Positions 3,578 through 31,263 of a DNA stretch of 41,778 nt are shown here, one piece after another. Under the pieces are notes generated by a model. That model was not told the origin of the DNA and ran no database searches. It worked only from the letters and a program-made list of their open reading frames with translations. The position numbers were made by a program, and so were the translations under genes. The DNA is from a virus. Location: the IMG/VR virus record IMGVR_UViG_3300037485_001042, positions 1 through 41,778 of that record, one strand, 5' to 3'. Numbering within the stretch: the first letter of the stretch is position 1; every line of letters begins with the position of its first letter.

Positions 3578-3960
3578 TTTCCCGCCCCCTGTGGAAACAG
3601 TTGCGGCTTATCCGCCTTCATCTGCATGAACTTTGATAATGCGTATCCATACCCAACGAATGCAACATCAATCAGGTCGGTGACTTCTTCCGGCTTCTCG
3701 AAGTTTACGTATATTTTAAGTCCCGGCGTTTTCGTGCTTCCTTCGAAGGAAATTGAGTCCGGCCTGTTCACCCCGCCTTCCTGCCGATGGATAACGATGC
3801 TGGTGTTAGGCTGCACAGACGGGCGGGCCTGCACGTTTGCTATGGGTGTTGCCGGCTGGGTGTTGCAGGGTGGTGTGTTGTATTCCACCTTGCTGCCGGT
3901 GGTGGTCTGCCCCCATCGCTGTGACAGACGGATGCTGGGATCTTCTTCCTGGTCGGTCAT
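3574..3960 (-). CDS. Hypothetical protein, 128 aa
   Basis: The first 65 residues are polar and Pro/Thr/Gln-rich, likely disordered. The second half (LKIYVNFEKPEEVTDLIDVAFV and following) looks like a small alpha/beta domain. No family recognised. It is coupled by 4-base overlaps to the winged-helix gene downstream and the zinc-ribbon gene upstream, so it belongs to the early DNA-metabolism operon. Confidence 0.65.
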   Translation of the reverse strand: MTDQEEDPSIRLSQRWGQTTTGSKVEYNTPPCNTQPATPIANVQARPSVQPNTSIVIHRQEGGVNRPDSISFEGSTKTPGLKIYVNFEKPEEVTDLIDVAFVGYGYALSKFMQMKADKPQLFPQGAGK

Positions 3961-4289
3961 TCTGCACCCTCCCGCATGGCATCCCGTAACACCCTATATC
4001 CCGCTGCGATCTCCTTCACTGCATCTTCATAGTCATGCAGTCCGGCGGCGTTGAGTTGTCTCCATGTTTCGGCGGCTTCCTTCATGCAGACTTGATTCTC
4101 TATGCTCTTGCTATCCTTCGGAGTTGCATGGTATCCACTTCCACCGTTCCCACCCTTCTTTGCATATGCTGACTTCGATGCCTCGCATTCATGCGGTGTG
4201 AGATCAGATGCGTTGTAGGGCTTGGGTTTGATGTCGCCCGTCTTCTGTACCCAGACCAGTTCTCCCTGGCAGAACTTGCAGGCTGACAT
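3957..4289 (-). CDS. Zinc-ribbon phage protein, 110 aa
   Basis: It opens with a C-x2-C knuckle (ACKFCQGELVWVQ) followed by GDIKPKPYNASDLTPHECEAS, giving a likely zinc site from Cys4, Cys7, His and Cys. This N-terminal pattern recurs in many small phage proteins of unknown role. The C-terminal half is helical (EAAETWRQLNAAGLHDYEDA). It probably binds nucleic acid or a protein partner. Its ATG overlaps the upstream stop by one base and its stop overlaps the next start (ATGA). Confidence 0.7.
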   Translation of the reverse strand: MSACKFCQGELVWVQKTGDIKPKPYNASDLTPHECEASKSAYAKKGGNGGSGYHATPKDSKSIENQVCMKEAAETWRQLNAAGLHDYEDAVKEIAAGYRVLRDAMREGAE

Positions 4290-4474
4290 CAGTATCTATC
4301 CTCCTGCATACGTTCAAGTTCTTCATCCCGCTGGCGGTCCGGGTCCGGCTGTCCAATTCCGCATTCTTCAGGGATGTGGTCATAGTGGCAGTCTTCTGAA
4401 GATTCGCAGTCATCGCAGGGTGACGGATCGTCTGCCGGGTTGTGGCTGATCCAGTTGTCGAAGGCTGTCATCAT
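4289..4474 (-). CDS. Acidic Cys-containing protein, 61 aa
   Basis: A small, very acidic protein with C-x2-C (DPSPCDDCESSEDC) and two further Cys, possibly metal-binding, and a highly charged C-terminus. No family recognised. ATGs at 4474 and 4471 both lie in the overlap with the upstream gene; the first is used here. It is part of the regulator-led operon that starts near 4960. Confidence 0.6.
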   Translation of the reverse strand: MMTAFDNWISHNPADDPSPCDDCESSEDCHYDHIPEECGIGQPDPDRQRDEELERMQEDRY

Positions 4475-4806
4475 ACCCTACCTGACCTGCATACGGCCTG
4501 ACACTCTTTTACCATGCTGGAAGGGCATTCCTCATAATCCCTATCACCACATGTCATGGACCCGAAGCATCCCGGCTTGTAATGCATTCCTAACAATGCA
4601 TCCAGGCGTTCGTATTCTTCCTGCCATGATGCAAGATCCGCTTCAAGCATTACCCGGTATTTGTTCCGGATGAAGTTCATCTTTTCAACGATTTCCCCTT
4701 TCATCGTGCAGAGTGACATGATATCGTTCTCATCTGCGTCTATTACGGGAGAAATTTCTTTATGATTGCAAGAACAATCATTACATGCACATTCGTTTTT
4801 TGTCAT
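4471..4806 (-). CDS. Cys-rich protein, 111 aa
   Basis: The protein has a Cys cluster at the start (ECACNDCSCNH), a helical middle (EKMNFIRNKYRVMLEADLASWQEEYERLDALL) and a second Cys cluster at the end (PGCFGSMTCGDRDYEECP through CRSG). Two putative metal sites flanking a coiled-coil-like segment suggest a small structural or nucleic-acid-binding protein. No named family recognised. It lies directly downstream of the ribbon-helix-helix regulator. Confidence 0.6.
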   Translation of the reverse strand: MTKNECACNDCSCNHKEISPVIDADENDIMSLCTMKGEIVEKMNFIRNKYRVMLEADLASWQEEYERLDALLGMHYKPGCFGSMTCGDRDYEECPSSMVKECQAVCRSGRV

Positions 4807-4810
4807 CTTC

Positions 4811-4960
4811 TTAACAACCCCTTGCAGGTTGACATACTATTTGTTGTGTTAATTCGTTCATCATGCGGTTCAATTGGGTATCGTGAGATTCCCCTTTCTT
4901 TCCAAATGTTTTAAACCGGGAAAGAGTTTCAGTTGATATCTGAATGGTTGTTTTTCCCAT
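4811..4960 (-). CDS. Ribbon-helix-helix regulator, 49 aa
   Basis: MGKTTIQISTETLSRFKTFG is the beta strand plus first helix of a MetJ/Arc-type fold, and SHDTQLNRMMNELTQ fits the second helix; the family binds DNA as dimers at inverted repeats. Start: the frame opens at 5074, but the ATG at 4960 places the RHH strand at the N-terminus as usual and leaves the upstream bases free as a promoter. As first gene of a leftward operon next to an inverted repeat, it is probably an autoregulator. An orphan antitoxin-like role cannot be excluded; no toxin gene is adjacent. Confidence 0.75.
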   Translation of the reverse strand: MGKTTIQISTETLSRFKTFGKKGESHDTQLNRMMNELTQQIVCQPARGC

Positions 4961-5012
4961 ACAAGTTATATACACGGTATAAGTATATATAACTATACGT
5001 CCTTTATTAAGT
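4961..5012. promoter_or_regulatory. Divergent promoter with inverted-repeat operator
   Basis: A 52-base gap separates the leftward regulator gene from the rightward HNH gene. It holds TATA-like sequence on both strands. GTTATATA (4965-4972) and TATATAAC (4986-4993) form a perfect 8-bp inverted repeat. The central AT stretch lies about 25-28 bp from both start codons, the archaeal TATA-to-start distance, so the same element may drive both directions and bind the RHH protein. Confidence 0.6.
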
Positions 5013-5576
5013 ATGGATATTGTGATAGAATTTGGTAAATTTTGTGTGATGTGTGGACAGTATAAAAGATTCAATGAATATCATGAAGAGTTGGATAAAC
5101 GAGATGGATTATCATTTCGCTGTAAATCTTGTTGCAATTTGATAAAAGAAAAACTGGATGAATATAAAAGTCAACAAAAAGTTATTCAGGTTCGGGATAT
5201 CGTAAAACAACGCAGATGGGCGAGAAGATATTATCTTACCCACAAAGAATACTTTTCAGAATACATGAAAAAATATCAGAAAACTCCAGAAGGGAAACAT
5301 GCAATGTCAAGAGCAGGACATAAAAGAAGAACAAATGGCGAAAATGTAATAAATGATTTAACCCTTGAACAGTGGAATATAATACTAAAATATCAAAGAA
5401 ACCGATGTTTGGGATGTGGAAAAAGATTCTCAATTAAACTACGCGCAGAGAAAGATCATATCATTCCCCTCTCTAAAGGTGGTGGATTAACCTTTGAAAA
5501 TGTCCAGGCGTTATGTAGGTCATGTAATGCCTCGAAACATGCGAAATTAGACTATTCAAAAATTATAACATGGTAA
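5013..5576 (+). CDS. HNH endonuclease, 187 aa
   Basis: A plus-strand gene with an N-terminal zinc site (FCVMCGQ and FRCKSCC, residues about 9-40), a basic helical linker and a C-terminal HNH core: CLGCGKRF, then EKDHIIPLSKGG, then NVQALCRSCNASKH. The order C-x2-C, DHIIPLSKGG, C-x2-C matches classical HNH nucleases of the McrA/homing type. It is more AT-rich than the structural genes beside it and points against them, which suggests a later arrival, probably a mobile free-standing homing enzyme. It has its own promoter in the gap to the left. Confidence 0.88.
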   Translation: MDIVIEFGKFCVMCGQYKRFNEYHEELDKRDGLSFRCKSCCNLIKEKLDEYKSQQKVIQVRDIVKQRRWARRYYLTHKEYFSEYMKKYQKTPEGKHAMSRAGHKRRTNGENVINDLTLEQWNIILKYQRNRCLGCGKRFSIKLRAEKDHIIPLSKGGGLTFENVQALCRSCNASKHAKLDYSKIITW

Positions 5577-5593
5577 AGTCACTCATTCCCCGC

Positions 5594-5609
5594 AACTTAT
5601 ATAAAGTAA
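5594..5609 (+). promoter_or_regulatory. Archaeal-type TATA promoter
   Basis: The sequence AACTTATATAAAG is a good archaeal TATA box. Its centre is about 27 bp before the ATG at 5630, so transcription would begin at or very close to the start codon (leaderless or very short leader). Confidence 0.6.
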
Positions 5610-5629
5610 TGGTGTAAACACTGTTAATT

Positions 5630-5788
5630 ATGATGACACTTACACAGCCAACATCACATAATGGACAGTATGGACAGTATATCTTAACACCTGGTGGAAA
5701 GGCACCCATACCAGAATGGATGAAAAATAAGAGCAAGTCCCTACCCGGCAGACGGTCTGAACGGATACGGTGGGACCCGGCTATTTGA
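5630..5788 (+). CDS. Hypothetical basic peptide, 52 aa
   Basis: A short plus-strand frame from ATG 5630 (a second ATG follows directly) to TGA 5786. The peptide begins MMTLTQPTSHNGQYGQY, where GGACAGTAT is tandemly repeated in the DNA, and ends in a basic stretch with Lys, Arg and Trp (KSKSLPGRRSERIRW). It has its own TATA box and a terminator-like palindrome after it, which together support a real gene. No family recognised. Confidence 0.5.
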   Translation: MMTLTQPTSHNGQYGQYILTPGGKAPIPEWMKNKSKSLPGRRSERIRWDPAI

Positions 5789-5819
5789 TAATAAAAAATA
5801 TATTTTTTATAATGCTGTT
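5789..5819. terminator. AT palindrome between convergent genes
   Basis: 5793-5808 is a perfect 16-base palindrome of six A, TATA and six T. It lies between the plus-strand 52-aa ORF (ends 5788) and the minus-strand beta-propeller gene (ends 5820). T-tracts in both directions fit archaeal intrinsic termination of both transcripts. Confidence 0.6.
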
Positions 5820-6857
5820 TTATTCTTTACCATAAGATCCAATCTTCTCTACAAAGGATAAATCGGAGCACAGGCGTATTATCAATCTACTCCCTGAAAC
5901 ATCTGTTACTCCCAAATACGTATTATCGGTGCATATTCCATGTTCTGAAGCAGATGGATAGTAATCAATTTTAGAGACATAGGATAAATCGGAGCATAAA
6001 TGCTTTTTAATTCTACGATTGCCAGTATCGGTAATATATAGTGTGGTATTATCGGTGCAAATATAAAATGGGCTTAAAAATTGATTGTCTCCGGTTCCCT
6101 GTAAGTTATTCTCTGAAATATAGGATAAATCGGAGCAGCGGCGTTTAACAATACCTGCATGTGCAATATAATTGTTGTCGATAGTACCATGATTAATAAT
6201 ATAAAGATTAGTTCCGTCTGTACAGATCCCAATCGGTTCAATATATTTTTGCTCGAGTGGGAAAATCTTTGCGATGAATGAGAGATCAGAACATAATCTT
6301 TTTTGAATCCGATTGTTCATAGCTTCGGTAATATAAATATAAGTCCCATCTGTGCAGATTCCTTCAGGTGTATCAAATTGGTTATCCCCTGTGCCTTCTG
6401 TTCCAATTTTAGAGACATAGGATAAATCGGAGCATAAATGCTTTTTAATCCTATGGTTAAGGGTATCCGTAATATAAATGTAAGTATTATCGGTGCATAT
6501 TCCTGTTGCATTCCAAAATTGGTTATCCCCTGACCCGTTTGTACCATATCCCCCAAAAGATGACACAAATGATAGATTGGAGCAGCGGCGTTTAACAATT
6601 CGCTGATTTAAGGTATCCATTATGTAATAATATACTCCGTCAGTGCATATTCCATATGGATTATTGAAATGATTATCCCCACATGCAGACCGCCTTATGC
6701 CAATTGGATCAACCGTTACTCTATCGCCAATTGATAGTGACGGACAGGCCCGCTGGATAACATCATTCCCCCTTACCCTGTCTCCAATCGCCATTGTTGC
6801 ACTTTTGAATATGGAAACAGAGCCTATTGTTACCCTGTCGCCTGCTGTGAATGTCAT
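5820..6857 (-). CDS. NHL-repeat beta-propeller tail protein
   Basis: A 345-aa protein. Residues 1-55 carry three copies of a GDRV motif (AGDRVTIG, IGDRVRGN, IGDRVTVD). The rest is six NHL-like blades, each with ICTD near the start, a (Y)ITDT-N-RI strand and a closing C-S-D/N-L-S strand, so nearly every blade carries two Cys. NHL propellers bind proteins or glycans. As the last gene of the tail module, after the tail-tip gene with a 4-base overlap, it is most likely a receptor-binding tail protein. Two blades are near identical in DNA (46-bp repeat), indicating recent blade duplication or conversion. Confidence 0.8.
   Translation of the reverse strand: MTFTAGDRVTIGSVSIFKSATMAIGDRVRGNDVIQRACPSLSIGDRVTVDPIGIRRSACGDNHFNNPYGICTDGVYYYIMDTLNQRIVKRRCSNLSFVSSFGGYGTNGSGDNQFWNATGICTDNTYIYITDTLNHRIKKHLCSDLSYVSKIGTEGTGDNQFDTPEGICTDGTYIYITEAMNNRIQKRLCSDLSFIAKIFPLEQKYIEPIGICTDGTNLYIINHGTIDNNYIAHAGIVKRRCSDLSYISENNLQGTGDNQFLSPFYICTDNTTLYITDTGNRRIKKHLCSDLSYVSKIDYYPSASEHGICTDNTYLGVTDVSGSRLIIRLCSDLSFVEKIGSYGKE
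5966..6011 (-). repeat. 46-bp direct repeat inside the NHL gene, copy 1
   Basis: Identical over 46 bases to 6404-6449. Both encode the same blade stretch (KKHLCSDLSYVSKI), so blade DNA has been duplicated or homogenised recently. Confidence 0.9.
6404..6449 (-). repeat. 46-bp direct repeat inside the NHL gene, copy 2
   Basis: Partner of 5966-6011; see that entry. Confidence 0.9.
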
Positions 6858-26500: not shown

Positions 26501-28026
26501 CGGACGTTGTATTTACCAGTTGCATGTTTTACTATGCACCTGCCAAGTCTAACTTCAAAGTTAGGTGCAACGGGTATAACCGATGTTATTGCACCGGGGG
26601 TTGCGGCGGATAGGTAGAACGAATCCCCTTCCGCACCATCAAAGGCAGATGTGTCCATGTGAACATGACCGCGAGTTGTAACAAATCCCGTTTCATGGGT
26701 GAGGATGTCTTCAGATGCCAGTCCAAGCACCTGACAGGTAGTGACGGAATTAGCCTGTGCAAGTGCAATTGATACCACTTGTGGAGTGCCGCCCACCCCT
26801 ACCGTATAAACCGCACTCCCTTTCGGGATGGTAATTGCAGACTGGTTGTAACATCTGCGATACTCCCGTAATCCCAGCGGGAGGGAAGTCGTTGCATCCA
26901 GTTGTATTCTTGCCGTTCCATCATCCGGACTCCAATACATTGAACTTACATCAGGAGAGCCTGGAACAGTTGGAGTTAAACCGAATTTTACAGGTGAATC
27001 CGTTGAAAGGGTGGTTCCGTCTATGGTTCCTGCATTTATGTCAACCTTTGAGATTACAACTGAACCTGTGCCTTTCGGTGTGATGGTAATCGGGATTGCT
27101 GCATCTGTTCCGTCCGCTGCCAGGGTGGTTCCGGTGAGCGTGACTCCCGCCGCTGCCACTCCGGTATCAAGGGTTGGTGCTGTTACTACTCCGGTAAACG
27201 TGGGTGATGCGATAGGTGCATAATATGAACCGTGTTGTCCATCCAACTTATCAGAATCGGCTGCGGTTCCTGCGACAGGTAAGAAATCTGATGTCTTTTT
27301 ACCGGAGTCTTTTATTATTTTTCCAGTTGCACCGTTGAAGATTGCAATATCATCTGCTGTTGCTCCGGCTGGCCCTACCACATCACCTGTTCCCGCTACC
27401 GCTGCATTGATCCATTTACCTGTTCCGTCATCATACTTCAGAACCTGGTCATCTACCAGTGGAGCAGTAATGACAACATCTGACAGGTCATCTAATGCAG
27501 ATGCTCCACCGCCGCCGCCGGGACCGGATGCAAGGACAACGCCACCGGATGGATACTCCCATTTCGTATCGTAGTCTTCCTTTGACTTCTTCACCGGCAC
27601 TTGACCGGGTTCTCCTCCGGGTGGCAGGCCGGGTCCGGGTTCCCCTTTCTCACCTGGTATGGATTCTCCGTCCTGCCCGTCTTTACCAGGTGGTCCCTTC
27701 GGGCCGGGAGATCCGTTTATCCCATCTCTGCCGTTTATCCCGTATGCTCCACGTTTACCAGGTTCACCCGTTTCTCCCTGTGGTCCTGGCTCACCTGGAA
27801 TACCGGGTTTACCTTGTGGCCCGGTATCTCCCGGAAGGCCATGAAAGATTAACAGGTCATTCCAAGGTGTCTTTCCATCGCCTATTTTAGAATACGATGC
27901 TGCACCGTCAACAAAGACAACGCCTTCTTCACCTTCTGCCAGGATTGGATTTGCATCTGACCATTCCTGCTCTGTTCCTCTTGCCAACTGGAACCGGGTA
28001 TCCTCGAACACTGTTTTTATCGTCAT
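23587..28026 (-). CDS. Large tail fibre: collagen-like region and C-type-lectin-like tip
   Basis: A 1479-aa protein. N-terminus (1-60) has the fibre motif [10 protein letters not shown], then [13 protein letters not shown]. Residues 63-122 are 20 uninterrupted Gly-X-Y triplets, followed by a broken collagen-like stretch. Next come beta-rich segments with repeats ([15 protein letters not shown] twice near 930-990). The last 400 residues carry the pattern of C-type-lectin-like tips of diversity-generating retroelement targets: [27 protein letters not shown], and [17 protein letters not shown], then FGARIS. It probably trimerises and carries host recognition. Start overlaps the MuF stop (ATGA). 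No template repeat or reverse transcriptase is present. Confidence 0.88.
27661..27840 (-). repeat. Collagen-like Gly-X-Y coding repeat
   Basis: Sixty codons encode 20 consecutive Gly-X-Y triplets rich in Pro, Lys, Glu and Asp (for example [18 protein letters not shown]). Such tracts form triple helices in phage fibres and act as rigid, trimeric spacers. Confidence 0.95.
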
Positions 28027-29702
28027 GTTTTACCTCCGTCAAGGACTGTAACCGCAATCCTTCCCGGTCTTCCGCAGTCTACGATTGTTCCCGCAACGTT
28101 CCCGATGGGTGCAGGGTGAAAGTGATATGAATATGGACTTGCCTGTAGGATTTCTCTTTCCCTGATGCTGATGACTTCCGCTGCTGATGCTGACTCTACC
28201 ATACTGACGTTTAATGCAAAGTCTCCTTTCGGGCCGGATGCATCGGGTAAATCGGCTTTGTAGAGCTCTGGGCACCTGCAATTGCTACTTATAAGCCCGT
28301 TGCCGATGTACAAAGTTGATAAGGTTTGACAATCATATACATAACCATGGTACGAAAGGATATTGATCTCGACAATCTCCGCAAGATCTATGAGTCCGGA
28401 GAATCGGTTAAGCATATGTCCCAGATTCTTGGTGTCTCCCGTCATTTTATTGTAGATCGTCTGATCGAGACGGGAATCACACCTCGGGGAAGAAGCGATT
28501 CCATGTATTTGCGGATGTCCAAGACGACTCCTGAAGAACGGGCTCGGTTGTCTGATGCCGCTCATACAGCCGTCCGTGGAAAGAGCCAGACCGAAGAGTA
28601 TAGATGTAAGGTTTCTTTGGGTGTTGAGAGATCCGGCGTGGTTTCCAGAGTTGAAAAGATCTGTATGGATTCTCTCATCCAACGTGGATTCAATTGTATT
28701 CCCCAAAAATCTATTGGGAGATATAATGTCGATATCGCCATTACAGAACCTCCCATCGCCGTGGAGATCTTCGGTGGAAAGTGGCATAGTAGAGGACGTG
28801 CTGCTGATCGTTTCAGAAAAAGATTTGATTATATCATCAATGCGGGATGGACACCCGTTATTATTTGGGTTTGTCGTGATTTCCCGTACGAGATCGGTGC
28901 AACAGAGTATATTATCTCCCTTGCGGAGCAGATTCGCAGAGGCGAATCCGTTCGGTGTGAGGAACATATGATTAGGGGTGATGGTCGTCTTCTTACCGCG
29001 AGAATCGAAAATCTCGATAACGGGACCAGAATACGGTATCACCATACCGGAAAGCGGGTCCGGCACTGTGCATAATGTTTCTGGAACAAAACATCCTGGA
29101 TGTCCCTTGCTCCTCATATGGCCTGATGAATGTGGCTGGTCAATTGGTATCCAGCCGTCATCCATGTTCATCCTGCATAGTTCACAGACCTTCTCATCCT
29201 TCAGGGTGAGCCAATATTTGAGCATCTTAAATCCGGCCTGTGCAATCTGCCGTGTCATTGCCTCCTTCGTGCCTTCGTGTGCATTGCCTATTTCCGTAAC
29301 TGCAATGAGTTTCGCACGTGGCCCTCCTCCGGGAATGGAATACTCTGCAAAATCTTTCTTCAGGTCTCTGGCGATCTGGTTGTAAGTCTTGCCTTCACCG
29401 TATCCTTTCTCAACGATTGTATTGAGTCTCTTCCTGGTTGTTTCGTCAATGCCTGCTATCTGTTCGGCGGCTTTCGCTTGAAGGTATGCGTGAGTGGCGG
29501 GATCAACGGGATTAAAGGAGAGTTTTATCCCTAACTGTGCTGATAGGGTTTGCCCGCCTAACGTGGATGCAATGGTCATCGGGCCGATAAGGGCATCAAT
29601 GAACTGTTGGCGGGTTGCGATCTGGGCGATTGATATGGCGGTATTGAGATTGTCTTTCTTCACTTCTTCCTGCAAGAGTTTGAAGTTGGATTTAGGAGAC
29701 AT
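28023..29702 (-). CDS. MuF-like minor head protein interrupted by an intein
   Basis: A 559-aa frame. Exteins: 1-203 and 475-559. The N-extein holds the MuF core ([20 protein letters not shown], then [21 protein letters not shown] and [12 protein letters not shown]). The C-extein starts CRCPELYKA. Joining the two gives GHPG-CRC, the conserved tail motif of MuF proteins, so the intein sits exactly in that motif. The spliced protein would be about 288 aa. MuF-type proteins lie on the inner face of the portal region and help package or inject DNA. It follows a 42-aa gene and precedes the fibre gene by a 4-base overlap. Confidence 0.88.
28281..29093 (-). other. Intein in the MuF gene (271 aa)
   Basis: Residues 204-474 of the MuF frame. 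Splice features: Cys204 as first residue (block [11 protein letters not shown]), block B with [11 protein letters not shown] (the TxxH residues), block F-like [15 protein letters not shown], and block G-like ISSN with terminal Asn474 and +1 Cys475. The penultimate residue is Ser rather than His, seen in some active inteins. The middle (about 268-440) is larger than in mini-inteins but has no LAGLIDADG or HNH motif in this frame. The opposite strand encodes a nuclease over residues about 210-453. Confidence 0.88.
28347..29075 (+). CDS. Antisense homing endonuclease (Vsr/EDxHD-like) nested in the intein
   Basis: A 242-aa plus-strand frame entirely inside the minus-strand intein (ATG 28347; the frame opens at TTG 28326). 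Order: an N-terminal HTH ([20 protein letters not shown], 20-40), a NUMOD3-like segment ([20 protein letters not shown], 64-83), then a Vsr/EDxHD-type nuclease core with candidate catalytic residues Glu103 ([10 protein letters not shown]), Asp129 (RYNVDIAI), Glu140, His147 ([10 protein letters not shown]) and Asp154, then the GW-x-PVIIW strand. This family includes homing enzymes associated with inteins and introns. Codons match the sense codons in exact register. A TTATAA lies about 30 bp before the TTG; expression is unproven. Confidence 0.85.
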   Translation: MVRKDIDLDNLRKIYESGESVKHMSQILGVSRHFIVDRLIETGITPRGRSDSMYLRMSKTTPEERARLSDAAHTAVRGKSQTEEYRCKVSLGVERSGVVSRVEKICMDSLIQRGFNCIPQKSIGRYNVDIAITEPPIAVEIFGGKWHSRGRAADRFRKRFDYIINAGWTPVIIWVCRDFPYEIGATEYIISLAEQIRRGESVRCEEHMIRGDGRLLTARIENLDNGTRIRYHHTGKRVRHCA

Positions 29703-29704
29703 TT

Positions 29705-29833
29705 TTATTCGCCAGATGATTCTTTTTTATCTGATGATGTTCTTTCCTTCTTTGGTAGGGTTTTTACAATTGTAAAATCCTCTTCATCCAATACAAACCG
29801 CTTTTCTGCGGAGTCTTCATATGTTTTTGTCAT
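29705..29833 (-). CDS. Small charged protein, 42 aa
   Basis: Begins MTKTYEDSAEKRFVLDEEDF and contains TIVKTLPKKER, then a Ser/Lys-rich tail. The TLPKK stretch echoes VVTTLPKKPG in the linker of the protease/scaffold protein, which may mark a shared processing or binding site. ATGA overlap with the ADP-ribosyltransferase gene and two bases from the MuF start. Confidence 0.6.
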   Translation of the reverse strand: MTKTYEDSAEKRFVLDEEDFTIVKTLPKKERTSSDKKESSGE

Positions 29834-31263
29834 TTTACCGGCTCCATAATATAGAAATATCTTCCTGCACCATTCGCCTGTTTTAATCCTTCTACGCCAT
29901 CGGGTGTTGGGCTGTTAATATGAGATTTATAAACGATGTTCGTTACCTGGTACTTATTGGCTTTAGGTAAGACGACTTCGCTTTCCGACATTCCCCCCTG
30001 CGGGTTGCCTATGTATAGTCCTTTATCGCCTTCGTTCTGTTTGGTAACCATGATATGATTACTACCCGAATATTCTGGGAGTCTCATGTTTTTCTCTATA
30101 CGTGTCTGTGAATAATATTCATCATATGGAATTACTGATGCATCTGGGAGTTTGGACGCCATTGCGTCCCATTTTTCTTTTCCAACACGGGCCATCATTG
30201 ATTTGGTGGCTGGAATGGTCATTCTTGGGATATCGGAATCCGGGTCATCTAACCGTTCCATTACTGAATCGTATTTTTCCCCACCGAAATTTTCCACGGT
30301 TTTAAACAATTCACTGTTTTTATACATGGACCTCCCGGCAAATGACTCTGCGGATGTAGCACTCGTAGTCCAAGAAGAATGATCTTTCTGCTGAATAACA
30401 ATTGGGTTCTCCTTGAGGTAATTTTCTAGGTCTGGTCGTTGTGCTAATTCGTATATTCCTCTTGCACTTCCGGTATTTGTAGCAGAAATCATCGCATCGA
30501 CAGAGCAACCACGTTGGAGATATAAATCCTGGTGCAGTGTTGACTTTTCCATTATAGTATCTAGATTTTCAGAGTGAGTTCTTAATGCCTGCATTACAAC
30601 TCCGTTTGGATCTGCCTGTAAATCTTTTGCACTAACGAACTTCGTTTCTCCGTCTAAAAATATTGCAAATTCTTCGCTCGGGCTGACTCCGATCCATGGT
30701 TGACCATCGGTTTTGCGGTATTGCTGAAGAGCCTCGTTTGACATACTTCGCCAGAACCTGACGGATTCCCCTTGTTTTTCAGTCAGTTGGTTGGTTTCAC
30801 CGTCCGGTCCCTCGTTTATCGGCTGGATAACTTCCTTGTATTTTTTGCCAAATATGGTATCGATATCTTCAGGTGATTTAATACCAATAGTGGGAGTAAT
30901 TTTTTTGGGTTGATCTTTGATTTTATTATCACTGCTTTTTTTATCCCCAAATTTACCCGCCAGTGTCTTACCAGTTGGCCCGGTTTTCAACTCTCCCGCT
31001 CCGGTAAGGTATAGATGGTTCCCATCATCCGTAGTAATCCAATGCCCATCATCTTCGGCTTCTTCGAATATTTTTTCCAGCCTTAAAAACTCCCTGATGG
31101 TAATATCACCCTGGCGTTTTATTATACGGGCTATACGTTGCGCAGTTGCCTTCTCTAATGCCTGCAATTTTATATCTGTCTGTTTGATGTTGTCTGCAAT
31201 GAGATAGTTGTCAACTACCCTTCTGATTGTTTTTAAGTCCGTGGGTAGTTGTGGCGGTGTCAT
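29830..31263 (-). CDS. ADP-ribosyltransferase-domain head protein
   Basis: A 477-aa protein. Residues about 1-70 are helical. Residues about 75-107 repeat the module found in the protease/scaffold protein (WITTDDGNHLYL, then GKTLAGKFGD). Residues about 240-475 have the R-S-E ADP-ribosyltransferase pattern: Arg251 in LYLQRG, the STS-like WTTSATSAESF (298-308), and ExE as Glu427-Ser-Glu429 in GGMSESEVVLP. The family moves ADP-ribose from NAD to protein or RNA. Its place between portal and MuF genes suggests it is packed in the head and injected, as T4 Alt is (inference). Four-base overlaps at both ends. Confidence 0.82.
   Translation of the reverse strand: MTPPQLPTDLKTIRRVVDNYLIADNIKQTDIKLQALEKATAQRIARIIKRQGDITIREFLRLEKIFEEAEDDGHWITTDDGNHLYLTGAGELKTGPTGKTLAGKFGDKKSSDNKIKDQPKKITPTIGIKSPEDIDTIFGKKYKEVIQPINEGPDGETNQLTEKQGESVRFWRSMSNEALQQYRKTDGQPWIGVSPSEEFAIFLDGETKFVSAKDLQADPNGVVMQALRTHSENLDTIMEKSTLHQDLYLQRGCSVDAMISATNTGSARGIYELAQRPDLENYLKENPIVIQQKDHSSWTTSATSAESFAGRSMYKNSELFKTVENFGGEKYDSVMERLDDPDSDIPRMTIPATKSMMARVGKEKWDAMASKLPDASVIPYDEYYSQTRIEKNMRLPEYSGSNHIMVTKQNEGDKGLYIGNPQGGMSESEVVLPKANKYQVTNIVYKSHINSPTPDGVEGLKQANGAGRYFYIMEPVK

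Follow-up and report, generated by a model that had tools for sequence, protein, structure and literature searches.

How can one stretch of DNA serve a splicing domain on one strand and a nuclease on the other? To our knowledge, the nuclease of an intein had so far been placed either within its reading frame or next to it. A sequence-only reading of a 41,778-base virus record (the window, meaning the whole stretch of DNA that was analysed) had proposed a different design, in which a minus-strand intein is overlapped by a homing endonuclease gene on the plus strand, antisense to the splicing domain itself. The terminase, portal, MuF, and tail genes of this virus all lie on the minus strand, and a methanogenic archaeon is its probable host, because the closest relatives of its portal protein are those of the Methanoculleus viruses L4768 and Blf4 (40% identity). 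The intein interrupts a minus-strand open reading frame (ORF) of 559 amino acids that matches Phage_Mu_F (E 4e-6, slightly under the Pfam cut-off). Next to this gene, positions 29830 to 31263 (minus strand) encode an ADP-ribosyltransferase-type domain (PF03496, E 6e-7), like other phage head operons.

An intein and a nuclease frame in the MuF gene

The minus-strand intein with splice blocks was borne out, and its boundaries lie exactly at 28281 and 29093 (Table 1). The intein matches the Pfam family Intein_splicing (E 1e-5, slightly under the cut-off, and E 4e-8 in a single-genome search), and its predicted Hint fold gave Foldseek matches to the RecA, RadA, and VMA inteins with a probability of about 1. 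The class 1 Hint residues C1, TPNH, N271, and Cys+1 are all present in the window copy; C1 and TxxH are conserved in relatives, and the C-terminal Asn and Cys+1 are kept in all 179 aligned copies. The intein is an in-frame insertion, and uninterrupted homologues exist (the MuF gene of Methanoculleus virus L4768 and the empty sites of Jersey-type phages). From the conserved splice residues and the intact host frame, we infer that the two MuF parts would be joined by protein splicing. In the structural model, the Hint strands are confidently predicted, and a linker (residues 128 to 230) that faces nuclease residues 1 to 120 is disordered; an in-frame endonuclease between blocks B and F was not found in this linker by Pfam matching.

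Table 1 Features of the MuF gene, its intein, and the antisense nuclease ORF in the window
Feature	Positions	Strand	Basis
MuF-like minor head protein gene with intein, 559 aa	28023..29702	-	Phage_Mu_F, residues 94-204; PHROG head proteins
MuF N-extein, ends HPG	29094..29702	-	intein-less homologue of Methanoculleus virus L4768 reads FPG/CRC at the junction
MuF C-extein, starts CRCPELYK	28023..28280	-	L4768 homologue, FPG/CRC
Intein, Cys204-Asn474 of the 559-aa frame, 271 aa; +1 Cys at 28278-28280	28281..29093	-	Pfam Intein_splicing; conserved splice residues; Foldseek
Intein block B, TPNH	28968..28979	-	T39 and H42 of the intein, (nearly) invariant in relatives
Intein block F region, HGYVYDCQ; nuclease start region antisense to it	28326..28349	-	alignment of 179 C-terminal Hint regions
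TATA-like ACTTATAAG, at the place of the extended -10 TGNTATAAT of many bacterial copies	28287..28295	+	sequence only
Antisense nuclease ORF, 242 aa from ATG 28347	28347..29075	+	MTES_1575, HTH_58; profile match E 7e-90
Helix-turn-helix DNA-binding part	28371..28493	+	Pfam HTH_58; model helices 8-16, 21-28, 32-41
PD-(D/E)XK Vsr/MTES_1575 core	28662..28871	+	Pfam; Foldseek 1vsr, 1cw0, 3r3p
Glu103, conserved acidic residue	28653..28655	+	kept in 173/177 copies
Asp129, invariant	28731..28733	+	178/178 copies
Motif constrained on both strands: IAVEI of the nuclease (137-141, including Glu140) facing DLHGD of the intein (relatives: DFHGD)	28755..28769	both	low entropy at both outer codon positions
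Nuclease C-terminal tail facing intein blocks A/B, predicted disordered	29001..29072	+	pLDDT <50, residues 219-242

The plus-strand ORF has an in-frame TTG at 28326, an ATG at 28347, and a stop codon at 29073 to 29075. As had been proposed, it lies wholly inside the intein, antisense to the splicing domain itself and codon on codon, so that position 1 of one frame stands opposite position 3 of the other. Pfam gave matches to the restriction endonuclease family MTES_1575 (E 8e-9, slightly under the cut-off) and to HTH_58 (E 9e-4); a PDB sequence search with the nuclease gave no match. Structure prediction, one of the checks suggested by the sequence-only reading, confidently gave a nuclease fold (AF2, pLDDT 88), with Vsr and the catalytic domain of the homing endonuclease I-Bth0305I as best PDB matches (Foldseek E values of only ~0.01, probabilities of 0.98 to 1.0). 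Of the parts read into this protein beforehand, the helix-turn-helix and the Vsr-type core stand, but the NUMOD3-like segment, which had no Pfam match, was rejected.

Five catalytic residues had also been proposed. Glu103, Asp129, and Glu140 belong, with Y126, N127, and R159, to the residues that are near invariant in 178 copies, and His147 is found in about 77% of copies, but Asp154 is not conserved and was rejected as a catalytic residue. With respect to the E-D-x-H-D pattern, E103, D129, and mostly H147 are present, whereas the last Asp is not conserved and E140 and R159 are.

Related elements in viruses and bacterial genomes

A tblastn search with the plus-strand protein found 146 phage records, and in the annotated phage loci fetched, the nuclease is encoded antisense within a gene for MuF or a minor head protein, except for one free-standing copy. 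Collection scans, which used sub-alignments (the 26-row nuclease alignment being too diverse), brought the number to about 258 loci, which come from contigs of viruses and from genomes of bacteria (e.g., Lamprocystis, Micromonospora, Streptomyces, Chloroflexi, and Scytonema). Because the nuclease served as the query for all of these, relatives that lack it are under-sampled. Of the 264 nuclease ORFs, 248 are entirely antisense to one uninterrupted frame that holds the two Hint halves, always in the same phase, and reduction at 90% identity leaves 179 of them. Many of the other ORFs lie at contig ends, and none of the 264 is on the strand of a Hint domain. The antisense frame thus stays open among homologues and its main catalytic residues are conserved, as the earlier reading required of a real gene.

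This two-strand design is common to about 250 related elements, found in archaeal and bacterial viruses. Their carriers include phages of Salmonella, Escherichia coli, Pseudomonas, and Gordonia, and prior annotation called them mostly head proteins or hypothetical proteins. Apart from MuF, the host genes include head genes of the VG15 type and genes for uracil-DNA glycosylase, some of which form a fusion with DNA polymerase A. The element was seen within uracil-DNA-glycosylase genes at three loci (L188, L190, and L210), two of them with this fusion.

At two loci (L009 and L044), a deletion takes out the Glu103 region of the nuclease and the intein is intact; these copies likely represent the decay stage of a homing cycle. 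The nuclease of UPWr_S5, which was suspected of being broken, proved intact. The free-standing homologue, in Acinetobacter phage P1068 (L021, 2833 to 3726), is convergent with an intein-less MuF gene and touches its 3' end. Overlap is therefore not required for the nuclease, and the arrangement suggests that a free HEG may have joined an intein.

Two frames and their start signals

From extein codon usage, 17.8 antisense stops are predicted in the window stretch and none is seen (log10 P -9.6). Across 165 loci, 1345 antisense stops are expected from the exteins and none is seen, an expectation that is conditional on open frames, for which 248 of 264 hits qualify. Both frames are under selection, with dN/dS-type ratios of about 0.2 to 0.3, because the wobble switches strand, from the nuclease strand in the linker to the intein strand in blocks A/B. 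In linker columns 5 to 134 of 178 copies, it falls on nuclease position 3 (mean entropy, 1.76 versus 1.43 at position 1), and in block A/B columns 189 to 228 the pattern is reversed (1.23 at nuclease position 3 versus 1.63 at position 1). Likewise, in 20 independent pairs, the nuclease NN/NS ratio in the linker was 0.26 (CI, 0.20 to 0.32) versus a sense NN/SN ratio of 0.57, and the intein frame was the better protected one in blocks A/B, with 0.25 versus 0.33 for the nuclease.

For the most part, each protein has its own share of the DNA: in the models, the nuclease core and helix-turn-helix mostly stand opposite the disordered intein linker, and the last ~50 nuclease codons, which face blocks A/B, encode a weakly structured tail. 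The earlier idea that each protein constrains the other therefore holds only in part, and VAVE/DFHGD is the only clearly doubly constrained short motif. That DFHGD is a mere mirror of the nuclease VAVE is disfavoured, with nuclease position 3 constrained beyond the need of Val and Ala and the motif kept in the two decayed copies that are without the Glu103 region; the intein strand is probably also selected here.

Codon choice in the C-terminal blocks differs from that in block B. The block F His opposite the nuclease start is encoded by CAT (antisense ATG) in 120 copies versus CAC in 17, compared with 51 versus 126 for the block B His (p 6e-27), and the block F Leu is encoded by CTC (antisense GAG, part of a Shine-Dalgarno sequence) in 74% versus 30% in block B (p 3e-14). 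Antisense to block G, about 50 nt upstream of the start, lies the extended -10 motif TGNTATAAT, which is perfect (8/8) in 16 of 173 loci versus 0.8 expected from synonymous resampling and matches in at least 7 of 8 positions in 33 of 173 loci versus 7.1 expected; the Jersey-type copy reads gcagttatgTGCTATAATtccatttgcaagataccagttctgttcattttcGAGGttataaacATG at this place. These statistics support the view that, in many bacterial copies, the C-terminal intein blocks also encode an antisense promoter, Shine-Dalgarno sequence, and start codon, beyond codon-usage expectation. The nuclease gene would presumably use this promoter, in which case the plus-strand transcript is predicted to start a few bases after TGCTATAAT. 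In 153 of 168 loci, the nuclease stop codon falls within the intein, and its median distance from the intein 5' end is 15 nt. In some copies (L010, L025, and L040), TATAAT stands closer to the start (block G/F columns 32 to 34 of the intein C-terminus) in place of the block G site, perhaps as an alternative promoter place.

The bacterial signals need not apply to the window copy, given the probable methanogen host of the virus. A clear Shine-Dalgarno sequence was not found before the ATG at 28347, and a sigma-70 scan of the window gave no promoter.

Mobility, alternative explanations, and known systems

The element is mobile, as its transfer and its presence and absence among relatives show. 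The Jersey-type MuF gene is matched by 349 records, 58 of them over at least 80% of its length and most of the others in two adjoining pieces, which are empty sites; most Jersey-type Salmonella phages have such an empty site. The inteins of the phages sam and dunkel are 100% identical and their exteins 77.9%, and the corresponding values for sam and E. coli phage Snoke are 95.7% and 70.9%. Compared with the empty-site phage TUMS_E15, sam is 100% identical far from the site and 64 to 68% identical in the 100 nt directly upstream of the junction, a pattern as would be expected of co-conversion from a divergent donor. E. coli genomes held no near copy of the Jersey-type element, and the element is confined to few insertion sites. 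Because of the empty sites, the mismatch between intein and extein divergence, and the flank tracts, we infer that homing by the antisense nuclease caused the transfer.

Taken as a whole, the element is very likely a mobile intein whose homing nuclease is encoded on the opposite strand. Reading of the late (minus) strand would yield MuF with the intein, which the Hint blocks would excise, joining MuF; reading of the plus strand would yield a separate helix-turn-helix and Vsr/EDxHD-like nuclease, expressed in bacterial copies from the promoter, ribosome-binding site, and start that lie antisense in the intein C-terminal blocks. The nuclease would probably cut intein-less MuF genes, and double-strand-break repair would then copy the whole element in. 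Nuclease function would be placed opposite the disordered linker of the intein, and splicing function opposite the ribosome-binding site, start, and C-terminal tail of the nuclease.

The antisense ORF might instead be no gene at all, a by-product mirrored by conserved intein codons or codon bias: codon on codon is the phase most prone to spurious long ORFs and mirrored similarity, and many copies are GC rich (median, 56%). However, the core wobble falls on nuclease position 3, contrary to what mirroring of intein codons would produce, and of the two frames there the intein frame is the more variable (2.95 versus 2.39 bits). Several loci of 40 to 45% GC, moreover, have zero antisense stops versus 20 to 32 expected. 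With the Pfam match to a restriction endonuclease family, the confident Vsr-like fold, and the selected start and Shine-Dalgarno codons, this leaves the by-product only a negligible chance.

A real nuclease could also have lost its function, most copies being inactive relics whose frame stays open only through the needs of the intein, much as L009 and L044 keep an intein without the Glu103 part. The nuclease-specific purifying selection in the 20 independent pairs, the near invariance of active-site residues in 178 copies, and the recent transfer indicated by intein versus extein divergence make this very improbable. Homing endonucleases of phages can mediate interference when phages co-infect a cell, and nuclease domains of the MTES_1575 family are found in anti-phage proteins (weak matches to ProA and Hhe), which would suit a nuclease whose main role is attack on competing phage or host DNA, with the intein as mere shelter. 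Such a main role is unlikely: a gene wholly within the intein, empty sites, conversion-like flanks, and few insertion sites fit homing, and the two roles are not exclusive.

In kind, the element is a mobile intein, with a new architecture. With canonical mobile inteins (VMA and PI-PfuI type), it shares the Hint domain, Cys1, TxxH, the C-terminal Asn, Cys+1, insertion at a conserved motif, and a patchy distribution with empty sites. Those inteins carry a fused LAGLIDADG or HNH domain, whereas the nuclease here is a separate Vsr/EDxHD-like gene on the opposite strand that has start signals of its own within the splicing blocks. The predicted catalytic-core fold is shared with I-Bth0305I (PDB 3r3p) and Vsr (1vsr and 1cw0), but the former is a group I RNA intron endonuclease and the latter a mismatch-repair enzyme, and in the present nuclease the final Asp of the EDxHD pattern is not conserved. 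Fractured genes, in which split inteins go with a free-standing EDxHD endonuclease, were reportedly described by Dassa et al. in 2009. They likewise tie a related nuclease class to inteins in phage-type genes, but their nuclease gene lies between the split halves, whereas here the intein is contiguous, one continuous frame with both Hint halves at 248 loci, and the nuclease overlaps it antisense.

The earlier reading knew of no described element of this design, and a literature search likewise gave, among the papers that it covered, no report of a nuclease encoded antisense inside an intein. Nearest among these is the ShiLan element, an HNH endonuclease encoded out of frame within a phage methylase (PMC11855218); it too hides a homing nuclease in a different frame from the host gene, whose own frame stays open, but it is on the same strand, of the HNH type, and without a detectable intein or intron, whereas ours is on the opposite strand and in a genuine Hint intein. 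A 2025 preprint on "non-canonical" actinophage inteins (10.1101/2025.01.02.630785) may cover part of this class, possibly its Gordonia and Mycobacterium phage members.

It is likely that these loci form a widespread, unrecognised class of two-strand elements, with a wall-to-wall antisense homing nuclease, start signals in splicing motifs, and doubly coded DFHGD/VAVE at the active site. If so, one DNA stretch read in both directions provides splicing and homing, and a seemingly nuclease-less phage intein can be fully mobile. The element would also lend itself to the study of antisense overlapping genes, because its codon register separates selection on each strand, and it is directly testable in culturable phages. 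For annotation it serves as a warning: antisense genes inside inteins are discarded by default.

One further locus carries two such inteins. Upstream in the same MuF gene of L007 (ORF 3752 to 6763, minus strand), a second intein has a different antisense nuclease (4997 to 5863, plus strand), with zinc-finger repeats and a DUF559/Vsr core (E 2.6e-13). Among relatives of this nuclease (L271 to L276), no further antisense case was found, and the 50% relative L271 is not overlapped. The second L007 nuclease keeps the same codon-on-codon phase, and this intein suggests that the antisense design may have arisen more than once.
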